From contig PBJO01000007.1 of assembly GCA_002720745.1 (NCBI GenBank), forward strand, positions 385,564 through 449,563: a stretch of 64,000 nt of DNA, written 5' to 3'. The notes beneath the pieces are model-generated. The model was not told the DNA's origin. It did no database searches and worked only from the letters and a program-made list of their open reading frames with translations. This stretch comes from Balneola sp. GTDB taxonomy: Bacteria > Bacteroidota > Rhodothermia > Balneolales > Balneolaceae. Shown here one piece after another: positions 53,672 to 61,117 of the stretch; within the stretch, counting starts at the first letter, position 1; each line of letters begins with the position of its first letter. Made by a program: the position numbers and the translations under genes.

Positions 53672-55030
53672 ATGCCTCATGTGTCCTTCATAAAACGAAG
53701 AATGACTTCAGTTTTTTGGTTACTGTGTTTACTTTTATTTCAGGTTTCCTGTGCCTCATACCTTTTAGATGAAACACAAGAGGGGATTAAAGACGCTGTG
53801 TATGATCAGCGCTATAGTGAGGCTATTGCTGGTTTAGAAGAGTCAAAAGATAAAGAGATCTATAAAGAAAAAGATTCTATCCTCTGGAATCTAGAAATGG
53901 GCATGTTAAAACACTACAATGGTGACTATGAAGAGAGTAATATGTATTTTTCAGATGCTGAAATTGCCATAGAACAGGCCTTCACTAAAAGTATTAGTCG
54001 GGGTATTTCTGCTTTCCTTGGAAATGACAATCAACTTTATTATGACGGAGAACCCTACGAAGAATTCTATCTTCATGCCTTTAAGGCCTTAAACTATATT
54101 CATCTAAACAAAATAGATGCTAGTCTTATCGAAATTCGAAAAATGGTCTATAAAATTGACCAACTCAATATTAAACTACGAGGACTTGCCGACACTTATG
54201 CTAGTACTGACACCCTAGCCAGCTCAATCGACTGGGATACTAAAGATACTAACGTCCAAAACTCTCCTTTTGCTCGGTACCTAGCAGCTAATTTATTTAC
54301 GGCCCTAGGTAATGTAGATGCCGCTCGGATAGAGCGTCAGCAATTCAATAGAGCCATAGCAGAACACTACCACCTAATTAATTTTTCATCACAATCAGAT
54401 ACTAATCTCACACAATTAAATAGAAATGTAATACCAGAATGGAGTTTTGGCCGAAATAACAATATACTTGTACTAAGTTTCACAGGTATGGCGCCTGAAA
54501 AAATACAACAAGACCTGCGAGTCTACAATGAATATTGGGAGACTGAGCTAAAGGTCTCCCTACCCAATCTTAATCCATATCGGTCGGAGATAATGGGGGT
54601 TCAAATTTGGGTTGGAGACTCACTAATGGGACTCAGTATAATGCTTGAGTCCATGCACGAAGTAGCTAAAGAAGTCTACACCTCAAAAATGCCCATTATA
54701 TACGGGCGAGCAGTACTACGAGCTATATCAAAATATTCTGGTACGCGATGGGTTGAAAATATGCGGGAAAAGGAAGATTCGTTTTTTGCCCATTTATTAG
54801 AATTTGCAGGGGACCTTTACAAAGAAGGTTCTGAAAAAGCAGACCTACGTTCCTGGTCTAGCCTTCCTGGAAATGTATTTGCCCACGCCTTCCAATTAGA
54901 TCCAGGCTCATATGAAATTGAGTTTCGGTATATAAACAAACAAGGGCTACCCATATACTCAGAATTTAGAGACATTCAAATCAAGCAGAGGCGTTTGGTG
55001 CATCTGCTTGAAACGCATCTAGCATTTTAA
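53672..55030 (+). CDS. COG3014-type lipoprotein
   Basis: This 452-aa protein has a basic N-terminus, hydrophobic FWLLCLLLFQVSCASYL with a lipobox Cys, and a helical TPR-like region (GLEESKDKEIYKEKDSILWN, then GMLKHYNGDYEESNMYFSDA). A middle domain follows with PEWSFGRNNNILVLSFTGMA, and the C-terminus is beta-rich. COG3014 proteins sit beside LpoB-like genes, as here (68 nt gap). An accessory role in peptidoglycan synthase activation is inferred from that neighbour. Confidence 0.78.
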   Translation: MPHVSFIKRRMTSVFWLLCLLLFQVSCASYLLDETQEGIKDAVYDQRYSEAIAGLEESKDKEIYKEKDSILWNLEMGMLKHYNGDYEESNMYFSDAEIAIEQAFTKSISRGISAFLGNDNQLYYDGEPYEEFYLHAFKALNYIHLNKIDASLIEIRKMVYKIDQLNIKLRGLADTYASTDTLASSIDWDTKDTNVQNSPFARYLAANLFTALGNVDAARIERQQFNRAIAEHYHLINFSSQSDTNLTQLNRNVIPEWSFGRNNNILVLSFTGMAPEKIQQDLRVYNEYWETELKVSLPNLNPYRSEIMGVQIWVGDSLMGLSIMLESMHEVAKEVYTSKMPIIYGRAVLRAISKYSGTRWVENMREKEDSFFAHLLEFAGDLYKEGSEKADLRSWSSLPGNVFAHAFQLDPGSYEIEFRYINKQGLPIYSEFRDIQIKQRRLVHLLETHLAF

Positions 55031-55098: not shown

Positions 55099-55707
55099 AT
55101 GAAAACAACCATTAACCTTAGTCTTTTTGTTCTTCTGGTAATTAGCATTCAATGTAAACCAGTAAACAGTATCAGCCGAATATCCCCCGATAACACAACC
55201 GAATTATCTGGTAAATGGAATGATACAGACGCACGATTGGTCTCCGAGGAAATGATTGGTGATGCCCTAAGTAATCGATGGTTAAGCAACTACACAGAAT
55301 CCACAGAAAAACCACCCGTAATCATCGTTGGAACCGTCCGAAACGAAAGTATGGAACATATAGATACCGAAGTAATCACTAAAGAAATGGAACGAGCATT
55401 TGTCAATTCCGGATCAGTAACCTTAGTAGCTAAAGCATCAGAACGTATGGAAATTAGAGATGAGCGGCTAGACCAACAGAGCTATTCCTCCCTTGAAAGT
55501 ATGAGTGCAATGGCAAGAGAGCTAGGTGCAGATTATATGCTCATTGGAAATATCAGTTCTATCATGGATGATGCACCTGATGGTCGAACCACTGCTATAT
55601 TCTATACCGTGAATTTAGAACTCATCGATATTGAAACGAACGTTAAAGTTTGGATTGGGAACAAAAAACTTAAAAAACTAATCGAACGTAGAAACTATCG
55701 TGGATAG
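55099..55707 (+). CDS. penicillin-binding-protein activator LpoB family lipoprotein
   Basis: This 202-aa protein has a signal (TTINLSLFVLLVISIQCKP) with the lipobox Cys at about residue 20. The core matches LpoB/CsgG-like proteins: WNDTDARLVSEEMIGDALSN (about 41-60), then PVIIVGTVRNESMEHIDTEV and ADYMLIGNISSIMDD and the IETNVKVWIGNKKLKK ending. LpoB activates PBP1B-type synthases from the outer membrane. It follows the COG3014 gene. Confidence 0.85.
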   Translation: MKTTINLSLFVLLVISIQCKPVNSISRISPDNTTELSGKWNDTDARLVSEEMIGDALSNRWLSNYTESTEKPPVIIVGTVRNESMEHIDTEVITKEMERAFVNSGSVTLVAKASERMEIRDERLDQQSYSSLESMSAMARELGADYMLIGNISSIMDDAPDGRTTAIFYTVNLELIDIETNVKVWIGNKKLKKLIERRNYRG

Positions 55708-57112: not shown

Positions 57113-58678
57113 TTAAAATCGTATTACTATTCCACTCAATGCACCAGTTAAATTAGCTCCGCCAATACTAGAGTCTGTAACTATAAGTCCTCCTACAGAA
57201 AATTCAAGATTTTTTAAATCAATCCCAAAACCAGTGGAAAAAGCAGTAGATGTTCCACCACCTATTCGAGTACCAAATCTTATAGGGATGAAATCAAAAA
57301 ACCTATATTGTGTGCCAAAGGTAAAAATTGGTTCGGTTATATTATTACTAATATCATTAAATCCATATGAGATATCTCCTGAAACAAGTAATTTACCTAC
57401 TATTAAAGCTGCTCCTAAATTCAAAGTGGCCGGTAAATCATAAGATCTTTCAACGGAACTCTCTGAAGTAAAGTTGCCATAAATATCATTTTGTAAACTA
57501 TCAGCTAAATCATTAAAAAAATCAGCTGGATCTTCATCTCCTATGTCGGGATCAAATTCAAAGGTGCCTTTTCCATTGAATACCATAGGTTTATTGTTGT
57601 ATGATATTGTTCCTTGATCAGTTAATGATAGAGAAACTCTTAATTGCTGATTTTTGTCTAATACATTTAAAATAGGTAGTGAAACATCCATTGCCAGCGT
57701 TACACCTAAATCTAGACCAAAGCCTGACCCAAGGGTTCCTATATCAGAACCACTATAACCAGTATAGTCAGCAAGCAAAGGATCTTTACCATCTGACTTT
57801 TTTTCTGCATATTCTTCCAAATTATCCGATATCTCTCCATAAGTATATAATTTGTAATCAAAATCGTGGATAATCATGTTACCTTTGATGAAGGGAGAGT
57901 TAACTTGGAGTGTTGATGCAAAGTCCAATTCAAATGATTGTATACCTATTAGATATTTAGGTGCAATCCCAACAAATATATCAATATCATTAATGAGGGG
58001 TAACTTCTTAATTATGCCTTTAAATGGTATTGGTAAAGCTGTTGCATATCCAACTGAAACTTCAGCATATGATAAAAATTTGGTGTTAAGATCAAATGGA
58101 TGTGGTTCTGAAAATTTATCTGAGTCTAATCCACTGAAAAATACATTGGCAAAACCTCTATTTATAGTAAATTCTTGATTGTTTCTAATCCTAGTTGCTA
58201 TTGAAAAACCAGCTCTTTTATAAAATGGCACCGATTTCCCACCCATAGTCGCGCCAGATGTTCTCTTTGAGTAACCAAAGGGTACTATGTCGTTTGATAT
58301 ATTAATAGCTCTCTGATCGTTGTCGTTTGTTCCAAACCAAGAATCAAGCATGTCTTCTTGGACTTGTCCCTCAATTGTCAAACCTTTGGTTAAATACTCA
58401 TTATAAACATTAATATTGAGTAATGATCCGTCTAGGCTAATTCCAGTACCCATAAACCCAAGCTGATTTAGATAAACCGATCCTTCATGATTATCTATCA
58501 TTAGATTTGCTGGATTTAAAAAATTAGCATGATATCCATCAATTAATGCAACTCCGCCTCCACCCATACCTAGGGTCATTGCGTTGTAATGGCGATTCTG
58601 TGCATTAGTGCTGTTATCTATAGAATAAAAAACTATAAATAATGCTAAAGAAATTAATTTATATCTATAGTTTTTCAT
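57113..58678 (-). CDS. DUF5723-like outer membrane beta-barrel protein
   Basis: This 521-aa protein has a signal peptide (LISLALFIVFYSIDNSTNAQ). The N-terminal motif is AMTLGMGGGGVALIDGYHAN followed by FLNPANL, as in FadL/PorV-type and DUF5723 barrels. Repeated amphipathic strands follow, and the C-terminus ends in IVIRF (terminal Phe). Its ATG directly follows the stop of the lipoprotein gene (TAGATG), so the two are translationally coupled. The function is unknown. Confidence 0.78.
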   Translation of the reverse strand: MKNYRYKLISLALFIVFYSIDNSTNAQNRHYNAMTLGMGGGGVALIDGYHANFLNPANLMIDNHEGSVYLNQLGFMGTGISLDGSLLNINVYNEYLTKGLTIEGQVQEDMLDSWFGTNDNDQRAINISNDIVPFGYSKRTSGATMGGKSVPFYKRAGFSIATRIRNNQEFTINRGFANVFFSGLDSDKFSEPHPFDLNTKFLSYAEVSVGYATALPIPFKGIIKKLPLINDIDIFVGIAPKYLIGIQSFELDFASTLQVNSPFIKGNMIIHDFDYKLYTYGEISDNLEEYAEKKSDGKDPLLADYTGYSGSDIGTLGSGFGLDLGVTLAMDVSLPILNVLDKNQQLRVSLSLTDQGTISYNNKPMVFNGKGTFEFDPDIGDEDPADFFNDLADSLQNDIYGNFTSESSVERSYDLPATLNLGAALIVGKLLVSGDISYGFNDISNNITEPIFTFGTQYRFFDFIPIRFGTRIGGGTSTAFSTGFGIDLKNLEFSVGGLIVTDSSIGGANLTGALSGIVIRF

Positions 58679-60940
58679 CTAGTTGTCTCCTATCACATTT
58701 TCCATATCTAGGCTTGCTGAAACATCAACAGTTAATGAATCTGAAGACCTTAACTTAATTTCCGAATTATCATAGGTATTTAGTTTTGCTGTGAAGACTA
58801 TATATTTTGTTTGGTTAAATAGGTCAAACTGATCTTTTGTGAGTGATATAGTAGTACTATTTATATTTGGTGCGCTAGAGTATCTCGTTAAATCATCGAT
58901 AGCTGAAGTAAGAACATTAATTGGATCATCATTAAGCATCGGAACATCAGTTAATCTTTCTTTAGATTCATCTAAAAATGTAAGTTCTATTCCAAAACCT
59001 AGCGGGATGCTATTTTTATAGTTAATAATTAATTGTCCACCATTAATACCTATTGGGTCATCCTCTGACGGTAAGTCCGTCAAAGCATCTGATTCTAAAG
59101 TATCTGTGTACGTAGCTGTATTAGGTGTTTTTAAAGCTAATGGTAACTCAACTTCAAAACTTGGAGTAAATTCAAGTGGTGTTGATATCAATGCCTCTCC
59201 ACCATCTTCATTAATAACAGCTTTACCAATGAATCTAATCTCTTTAGGAAGGTTATTTAGAAAATCGATGACTGTTGAATTGTTCTGATTAAATTCTATA
59301 CTACCTTCAATTAAATCTCCTGTTATACTAGGAGATATTTCAAATTTAACCATCTCAGATGAAGTCAAATCAATGCCATTTTTCTGCAATCCAGATATGT
59401 TATCAGATCCACTTACAAAATTTGAAGAACCTTCACTACCCGTTAAATAAAATTCATTATTATCACCATCAATACCCATTATTGAAGCATAAATTGATGT
59501 AGATATACCTATGTTTGAAGTATAATTAATAGATAGTTTAGCTTGAGTAAATTCTAAATTTTCCAATTTACTTGATAAATCTTCCAATCCGCTAATTTCT
59601 ATTATCTCTGCTTCTGTCTCGTTGTATAAATCAATTATTTCAGTACCATTGGCAGTGTCATCTTCACCTAATAATACTGTTTTAGATTTTACTACACCGT
59701 ATGCTTCAGCCACTTTTATATTTGTGATCGAAACACCAGATGATACGGAATGTAATTCATTAACCGTCCGAAATCTGTCATTCAAAGAAAGTATTTTTGT
59801 GTTTTCGGTAATTGCTCTTATTGAGTAACTGACTTGATTATTGGTGGCATATAATCTATATCCAGCTAAATCTATTGATTTTGCTGGTGCACTTGATTTT
59901 CTTTCGATCTTATCTTCTCCAACATATGAAATAACTAATCCATCAGATTCTGTGTATGGAGCTTTTCTAATTGAATTAAATGTAATAATTAACTCTTCCA
60001 CTGTAAGGTCTAAATCGCTAACAATAGGATCAATATCAATTATACCTGACTCTAGTTCTACAAAATGTTCAGTAGTAATAAATTGAAATTCGTCTGTTTC
60101 AATATCAGAAGAATTACTTGTAGAGAAATCCTGAGGTTCGAGTGCAGCTTCTACTTCAGAAGCAACTAAATCAATACCCTCTATACCATTTACTATAAGT
60201 GAATTAACATTTCCTGTTAGAACTTGTGCATTCCACGCAACTGAAACATCAACGTTTATGTCTTCTAATTTATCACCAGCATTAAACGCTATGGTTGCGT
60301 TCCTTGATGTGTTGGTATTGAAGTTTGTTATAGATGCTTCATTAACATAATTTTCCCCTGAATTTAAAACGATAGTTAGTTCGGTTATTGTAAATCCTAA
60401 ATCGTTAGTTAATGTAAGTTGAATCGAGCCACGTTTTATTGTAGCACTCTTAAAAAAATCAGTATTATTTCCAACATTAATATTAGTAGGTGTAGGCGAA
60501 CTACCACCAGGTATAGGAATACCAACCGGTATAGTAGAAGGATTTATTCCCGTTAGGTCTTGAAAATTTGCTTCGCCCAAATTACCAGTCCCAGAGGAAA
60601 AATCACCTATACTAATTTCTCCAACCTCTGCATCAAATTCAGTTTTATCAGTATCAATTTCTGGTATAGCATCGTTCAAGTCTCCAAACTCGAACTCTTC
60701 TTTTTTATTTATTGAGATAAATCCAATATCATCTCCTGACTGTACTACTGTGAAAAGAGAATCCAAGTCATCAGAAGTAGTATCGATAAGTACATTACTA
60801 ATATTTGCATCACCCATCACTAGAATAGTATAATCGGTAATTAGTGGAGCTTGAAACTTTTGTGATAAAGTGAAATTTGGAGCTTCTGGTACTTCACAAG
60901 CAGCAAAAAATACCAGAAAAATCAAAAATGTAGTTCTCAT
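58679..60940 (-). CDS. large uncharacterised outer-membrane-type lipoprotein
   Basis: This 753-aa protein has a signal with a lipobox (TTFLIFLVFFAACEVPEAPN). It is acidic and beta-rich, with many Ser, Asn and Thr. I do not recognise a family. A hydrophobic, proline/glycine-rich stretch lies near 140-150 (PVGIPIPGGSSPTPTNIN). Several segments end in similar IDLxxSE patterns (for example GIDLVASEVE and GIDLTSSEMV), which may be weak repeats. It is coupled to the DUF5723-like barrel. Confidence 0.75.
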   Translation of the reverse strand: MRTTFLIFLVFFAACEVPEAPNFTLSQKFQAPLITDYTILVMGDANISNVLIDTTSDDLDSLFTVVQSGDDIGFISINKKEEFEFGDLNDAIPEIDTDKTEFDAEVGEISIGDFSSGTGNLGEANFQDLTGINPSTIPVGIPIPGGSSPTPTNINVGNNTDFFKSATIKRGSIQLTLTNDLGFTITELTIVLNSGENYVNEASITNFNTNTSRNATIAFNAGDKLEDINVDVSVAWNAQVLTGNVNSLIVNGIEGIDLVASEVEAALEPQDFSTSNSSDIETDEFQFITTEHFVELESGIIDIDPIVSDLDLTVEELIITFNSIRKAPYTESDGLVISYVGEDKIERKSSAPAKSIDLAGYRLYATNNQVSYSIRAITENTKILSLNDRFRTVNELHSVSSGVSITNIKVAEAYGVVKSKTVLLGEDDTANGTEIIDLYNETEAEIIEISGLEDLSSKLENLEFTQAKLSINYTSNIGISTSIYASIMGIDGDNNEFYLTGSEGSSNFVSGSDNISGLQKNGIDLTSSEMVKFEISPSITGDLIEGSIEFNQNNSTVIDFLNNLPKEIRFIGKAVINEDGGEALISTPLEFTPSFEVELPLALKTPNTATYTDTLESDALTDLPSEDDPIGINGGQLIINYKNSIPLGFGIELTFLDESKERLTDVPMLNDDPINVLTSAIDDLTRYSSAPNINSTTISLTKDQFDLFNQTKYIVFTAKLNTYDNSEIKLRSSDSLTVDVSASLDMENVIGDN

Positions 60941-61028
60941 ACGTTAAGAAAATGATTTAGTATTGATTTAAAAAATAATTTATTAGATATCATAAACCTA
61001 ATAAAAATGTATGAAAAGATTTATAGTG

Positions 61029-61117
61029 CGGAGAGGGAGGGATTCGAACCCTCGGTACCCCGGTGGGGGCACACACGCTTTCCAGGCGAGCCCGTTCAAC
61101 CACTCCGGCACCTCTCC
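61029..61117 (-). tRNA. tRNA-Ser (anticodon GGA)
   Basis: On the minus strand the acceptor stem GGAGAGG pairs with CCTCTCC, with G as the discriminator. It is an 89-nt class II tRNA with a long variable arm. The anticodon GGA is read at 61081-61083, and the T arm has GGTTCGAATCC. It is followed on the minus strand by the lipoprotein gene. Confidence 0.95.

Follow-up and report, generated by a model that had tools for sequence, protein, structure and literature searches.

Gene organization and base composition

Within the 64,000-nucleotide stretch of Balneola sp. DNA analysed here (the window), the gene for a large lipoprotein is directly followed by that for an outer-membrane barrel (Table 1). 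Both open reading frames, their export signals and the TAGATG abutment were recovered as an earlier description made from the letters alone (the sequence-only reading) had given them, and translational coupling at this junction is likely. The homologous junctions measure -4 to +18 nt in most relatives, with a maximum of +118. A promoter scan of the pair gave chance-level results and no terminator was found; among the 20 listed of its 22 families of DNA direct repeats, nearly all are short, two-copy and chance-like. The locus neighbours conserved in close relatives include an LpoB-like lipoprotein (PF13036, 7.8e-36; 55099-55707) and a 452 amino acid lipoprotein-like protein lacking a Pfam match (53672-55030).

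Table 1. Coordinates of the lipoprotein-barrel pair and associated features in the window
Feature	Position	Strand	Basis
Lipoprotein gene, unnamed family (remote relative of DUF4621), first of pair	58679..60940	-	ORF, 753 aa
Lipoprotein signal peptide and lipobox to Cys15 (FFAAC)	60896..60940	-	sequence; all 52 homologues have Cys15
Conserved N-terminal tail of the mature lipoprotein, C-E-x-P-x-x-P-(D/N)-F ... P, residues 15-32, candidate for docking on the barrel	60845..60898	-	homologue alignment
Lipoprotein C-terminal domain, about residues 600-753, the region in common with the remotest homologues	58682..59143	-	profile matches, hhalign
DUF5723 FadL-like outer-membrane barrel gene, second of pair	57113..58678	-	ORF, 521 aa; PF18990; AlphaFold2; Foldseek
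Barrel N-terminal hatch, residues 27-59, QNRHYN...LGMGGGG...NPANL	58502..58600	-	NPA invariant in 43 homologues
Stop/start junction TAG/ATG, zero gap	58676..58681	-	sequence
tRNA-Ser(GGA), conserved upstream edge of exchanged cassette, kept in several pair-less relatives	61028..61117	-	ARAGORN

The sequence-only reading had also supposed, on an uncomputed impression, that third codon positions are AT-rich here. This proved correct: among the 48 genes compared (mean GC3 0.294, sd 0.036), the lipoprotein (0.184, z -3.0) and the barrel (0.209, z -2.3) have the two lowest values.

The barrel protein

The product of the second gene is a member of DUF5723 (PF18990; E 2e-25, 90.7 bits against a cut-off of 26.8), a profile that is matched by 41 of 43 paired barrels. 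Its signal peptide ends in NSTNA, with cleavage before Q, and weak matches to the BamG and PorV_fam profiles begin at the N-terminal hatch. The AlphaFold2 model (pLDDT 86.9, pTM 0.83) was compared with known structures using Foldseek; BamG of P. gingivalis (9hjm_F, E 5.8e-9) ranked best, followed by FadL, TodX, BamG of F. johnsoniae (9n2d_B, E 2.4e-6) and PorV. The FadL/PorV/DUF5723 assignment that had been made from the N-terminus is the right one. No mention of DUF5723 was found in the literature searched, and its Pfam entry is that of a domain of unknown function with no lipoprotein partner described.

Two other arrangements of DUF5723 genes were seen. A second, solitary barrel of this family adjoins uvrD in the window genome (L113:6725-8356) and in pair-less Balneolaceae (L115-L125), with no lipoprotein beside it. 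At another locus (L181:6679-9911) the order is reversed, a DUF5723 barrel being followed, with a 4 nt overlap, by a different lipoprotein of 628 amino acids which has weak Ig-like matches and no profile match to the window family.

The lipoprotein

By sequence, the lipoprotein has no match in Pfam, NCBIfam or the PDB, in keeping with the claim that it belongs to no recognised family. Its most constant feature is the mature tail C-E-x-P-x-x-P-D/N-F, which reads CEVPEAPNF in the window protein; C15, P18, P21, F23 and P32 are invariant across 26 homologues, and C15, P18 and P21 across 52. The homologues range from about 505 to 1090 amino acids, the longer forms carrying added beta modules. The repeated IDLxxSE-type segments noted earlier exist as two exact copies (IDLVASE and IDLTSSE); the larger repeat, a module of roughly 140 amino acids visible in the long homologues, is suggestive, each additional copy scoring weakly (E about 0.05-3). 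In other classes, profile matches are confined to model positions of about 540-740.

The AlphaFold2 model of the lipoprotein is an all-beta stack (mean pLDDT 87.4) in which the arrangement of the domains is less certain (pTM 0.64). The one convincing fold match in the PDB is 4H3W (4h3w_B; E 2.5e-10, probability 1.00), which is BDI_1231 of Parabacteroides distasonis and a member of DUF4621 (PF15414). The alignment has a TM-score of 0.59 by target length and 0.27 by query length (rmsd 9.2), so the match covers one part of the lipoprotein and not its full length. The PF15414 profile itself matched none of the 52 lipoproteins, and nothing in the window genome or the sampled family.

Two acidic residues follow the lipidated cysteine (CEVPEA). 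At least two are present in 18 of 51 homologues; known SusD lipoproteins of the family, used as controls, do little better at 19 of 30. Surface exposure is compatible with the sequence at the lipidation site.

Linkage across the Bacteroidota

Among 38 related genomes the lipoprotein was found in 29, and in all 29 a DUF5723 barrel lies immediately downstream on the same strand. Searching 296 Bacteroidota genomes by profile raised the number carrying the lipoprotein to at least 82, a lower bound since the search scored the best candidates per genome. Within the window's class, all 45 matching genomes have the two genes adjacent and on the same strand. Outside it, where the coordinates of lipoprotein and DUF5723 matches were compared by hand, the barrel is directly downstream in 26 of 37 genomes, the order is inverted in one (L194) and the genes are apart in ten; at two loci of the last kind that were read, the lipoprotein homologue lies directly upstream of pgk (L099:5699-7762 and L104:6307-8382). 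When 69 DUF5723 barrels were placed in a tree, 4 changes sufficed to explain the paired state, compared with 20 in shuffles, and paired barrels were present in every deep branch; the linkage is ancient. Frequent separation of the genes, or a known lipoprotein family with another partner, had been named as counting against a pair; neither was seen within the class, while outside it the separated genomes bear on the first point.

Shorter lipoproteins occupy a similar position elsewhere. Intermediate forms of 530-736 amino acids are clearly related to the window family (hhalign E 4e-49). In Flavobacteriaceae-type loci a lipoprotein of about 180 amino acids overlaps or abuts the start of DUF5723 at all 22 loci read (L145-L166), and its profile relation to the long lipoprotein is marginal (hhalign probability 65%, E 6e-5). 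A single clear DUF4621 locus was found (G362); its DUF4621 gene precedes a DUF5723-like barrel by 30 nt, which gives independent support to the relation between DUF4621 and the window lipoprotein. Because the comparison of the G362 protein with the window family by profile is weak, fold and gene order are what ties the two families together. DUF4621 proteins, which share the fold of one part of the window lipoprotein, are much shorter (about 330-376 amino acids).

Joint loss

Seventeen genomes of the order have no detected lipoprotein, and the paired type of barrel is absent from all of them. Twelve of the 17 keep a solitary DUF5723 paralogue, which in the loci read is beside a uvrD-like coding sequence; the other five have weak barrel matches only, four of them being incomplete genomes. 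SprA and BamG were present in 26/26 family genomes checked and the pair in 15/26, so that its absence elsewhere is not due to incompleteness; unlike BamG, the pair is dispensable. In four pair-less genomes murQ-plsC-tonB-tRNA-Ser is retained with unrelated genes beyond, and in a member of the same genus (G008) murQ-plsC-tonB is kept while the tRNA and the pair are both missing from that place. The number of SusD proteins per family genome ranges from 0 to 44 with no clear trend, several pair-less genomes being rich (15-44) and one pair-bearing genome having 26.

Cassette exchange within the genus

The exchange analysis was carried out on Balneolaceae metagenome-assembled genomes, from which the relatives named here are taken. 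For G005 and G001, DNA identity falls from 0.81-0.97 across murQ-plsC-tonB to 0.56-0.71 within the pair, and is 0.74-0.92 downstream of it. The opposite holds for the window genome and G005, with 71-85% identity upstream and 84-96% in the pair. One breakpoint lies at the tRNA/lipoprotein start, the other at the barrel end/DAO end. Synonymous divergence follows the same course: for the window genome and G005, dS is 0.37/0.29 in the pair and 1.1-1.7 in murQ-plsC-tonB, whereas for G005 and G001 it is saturated in the pair and 0.26-0.74 in murQ-plsC-tonB. Across nine loci, the distance matrices of lipoprotein and barrel are correlated at 0.96 and those of the neighbours with one another at 0.92-0.96, while the correlation of the pair with its neighbours is 0.67-0.78.

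Low GC3 goes with the allele that the window genome, G005 and G006 have in common; G001 and G002 do not show it. The AT-rich third positions therefore belong to the window's allele, and the separate history of the pair explains its odd composition. As a general property of the pair genes low GC3 is excluded, many relatives having little or no deficit. Diversifying selection within the allele was not seen (dN/dS about 0.1, indicating purifying selection). The order murQ-plsC-tonB-tRNA-Ser-pair is syntenic across the order, which disposes of a recent foreign island at the tRNA in its simple form; replacement of the allele in place is what fits at this locus.

Comparison with known outer-membrane systems

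BamG-BamH is a FadL-fold barrel with a surface lipoprotein found in the BAM complex of Bacteroidota (PDB 9N2D, 9HJM; PMC12611786, PMC12578637), the lipidated tail of BamH lying in a groove of BamG (PMC12611786). The window genome has its own BamG-like locus (L114:5351-7902, contig C6). Its BamG-like gene codes for 444 amino acids and scores 211 bits to NF053685, below the cut-off of 250; directly upstream is the gene of a 402 amino acid lipoprotein without a Pfam match, and the two likely form a BamH-BamG operon. The window pair resembles BamG-BamH in joining a FadL-type barrel with a lipoprotein, in the same gene order. It differs in that the lipoprotein is unrelated by sequence and in that the barrel has no extended N-tail passing through the lateral opening, 28 residues separating the predicted cleavage site from NPA against 49 in the BamG-like protein (by counting). 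Against the BamG model the window barrel scores 25.1 bits, over residues 32-59 only (equivalog cut-off 250), and neither BamH nor any other BAM subunit appears in the 50 top-ranking PDB folds for the lipoprotein model. The separate BamG-like locus, the low score, the short N-tail and the different lipoprotein fold together exclude the pair from being BamG and BamH themselves.

A surface display or secretion role had been proposed by the sequence-only reading. The data fall short of it: no T9SS sorting domain came up for the lipoprotein in the NCBIfam search, the T9SS core gene sprA is found in genomes that have the pair as well as in genomes that lack it, and exposure at the surface is no more than compatible with the lipidation-site sequence. 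On the first two grounds the pair is rejected as a component or client of the T9SS. It is also not a defence system, there being no PADLOC match.

PorV, FadL and TodX share the superfamily fold of the window barrel; PorV is a shuttle of the T9SS, and FadL and TodX are importers. None of them is known to have a lipoprotein partner gene of the kind seen in the window. SusC-SusD likewise comprises an outer-membrane barrel and a surface lipoprotein encoded side by side, but the folds are unrelated to those of the window pair, SusC being a 22-strand barrel related to TonB-dependent transporters (PMC12611786).

Interpretation

The two genes stay together, are lost together and are swapped together, which suggests that the pair works as a single surface device. 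The stoichiometric outer-membrane pair guessed by the sequence-only reading finds good support, as a co-inherited pair, in the constant adjacency within the class, the joint loss and replacement, the distance correlation (r = 0.96) and the BamG-like fold of the barrel. Joint inheritance and exchange could be explained by operon structure alone, and operon exchange is by itself no proof of contact between the two proteins. On balance we consider it probable that the pair forms one accessory outer-membrane complex, a FadL-type barrel with a surface lipoprotein, built like BamG-BamH with an unrelated lipoprotein. In such a complex the DUF5723 barrel would sit in the outer membrane as an anchoring platform, and the lipoprotein would be exported and lipidated. 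By analogy with the BamH tail on BamG, we propose that the conserved proline-rich N-terminal tail may dock on the barrel, so that the stack of beta-domains would project from the cell surface as BamH does on BamG. The complex would be accessory, with no place in the essential core of BAM or the T9SS, and would probably act on some client or ligand at the surface of the cell; exposure there would account for the swapping and loss of the two-gene cassette in evolution.

Three other readings were weighed against this one. The pair might import hydrophobic small molecules in the manner of FadL, its lipoprotein capturing substrate outside the cell or acting as a lid, following the logic of SusCD. 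The fold of the barrel (FadL, TodX and BamG), the invariant NPA motif of the hatch and the unextended N-tail, which leaves no need for the lateral opening to be plugged, all agree with import; NPA-type hatches occur, however, in the non-importers PorV and BamG, no catabolic genes travel with the pair, and the range of lipoprotein length (505-1090 amino acids, and about 180 in the Flavobacteriaceae-type) does not point to a substrate lid; we regard import as unlikely. An alternative BAM module assembling a subset of outer-membrane proteins, equivalent to BamG2/BamH2, appears less likely still. A putative BamG2-BamH2 operon does exist in B. thetaiotaomicron (PMC12578637), P. gingivalis BamG is the best fold match of the barrel, and the gene order is that of the genome's own BamG-like locus; yet the folds nearest to the lipoprotein do not include BamH, the N-tail that contacts BamA is missing, and the barrel scores only 25 bits against the BamG cut-off of 250, where another protein of the genome, the BamG-like one, reaches 211.

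It is also conceivable that the lipoprotein faces the periplasm and is simply co-transcribed with an unrelated barrel, the acidic export signal being weak in many homologues and the genes being apart in some lineages. Deep conservation of the linkage, joint loss and joint allele exchange argue against this, and it seems to us the least probable of the three. The preferred reading of an accessory surface complex may be extended in a more speculative direction, which is possible but doubtful: DUF5723 and the window lipoprotein family, together with DUF4621 and the short Flavobacteriaceae-type lipoproteins, would represent an undescribed outer-membrane machine of the whole phylum, a third FadL-barrel device beside BamG-BamH and PorV. 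Such a machine would serve particular ligands or client proteins at the cell surface, and phages or antibacterial toxins would exert the pressure under which its exposed allele is exchanged.

Complexes of a barrel with a surface lipoprotein dominate the outer membranes of Bacteroidota, and the BAM versions among them were first described in 2025. The pair in the window is ancient and widespread, yet without a name or an assigned function. A remote relative of its lipoprotein already has a crystal structure (4H3W), and no partner was linked to 4H3W in the papers searched. In Bacteroides fragilis, the receptor for the BSAP-1 toxin belongs to the FadL family of barrels and occurs in sensitive and resistant forms (PMC12853789), which is a precedent for exchange and not evidence about the window pair. 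The joint exchange of both genes makes their partnership directly testable, and suggests that the pair is visible to outside agents.
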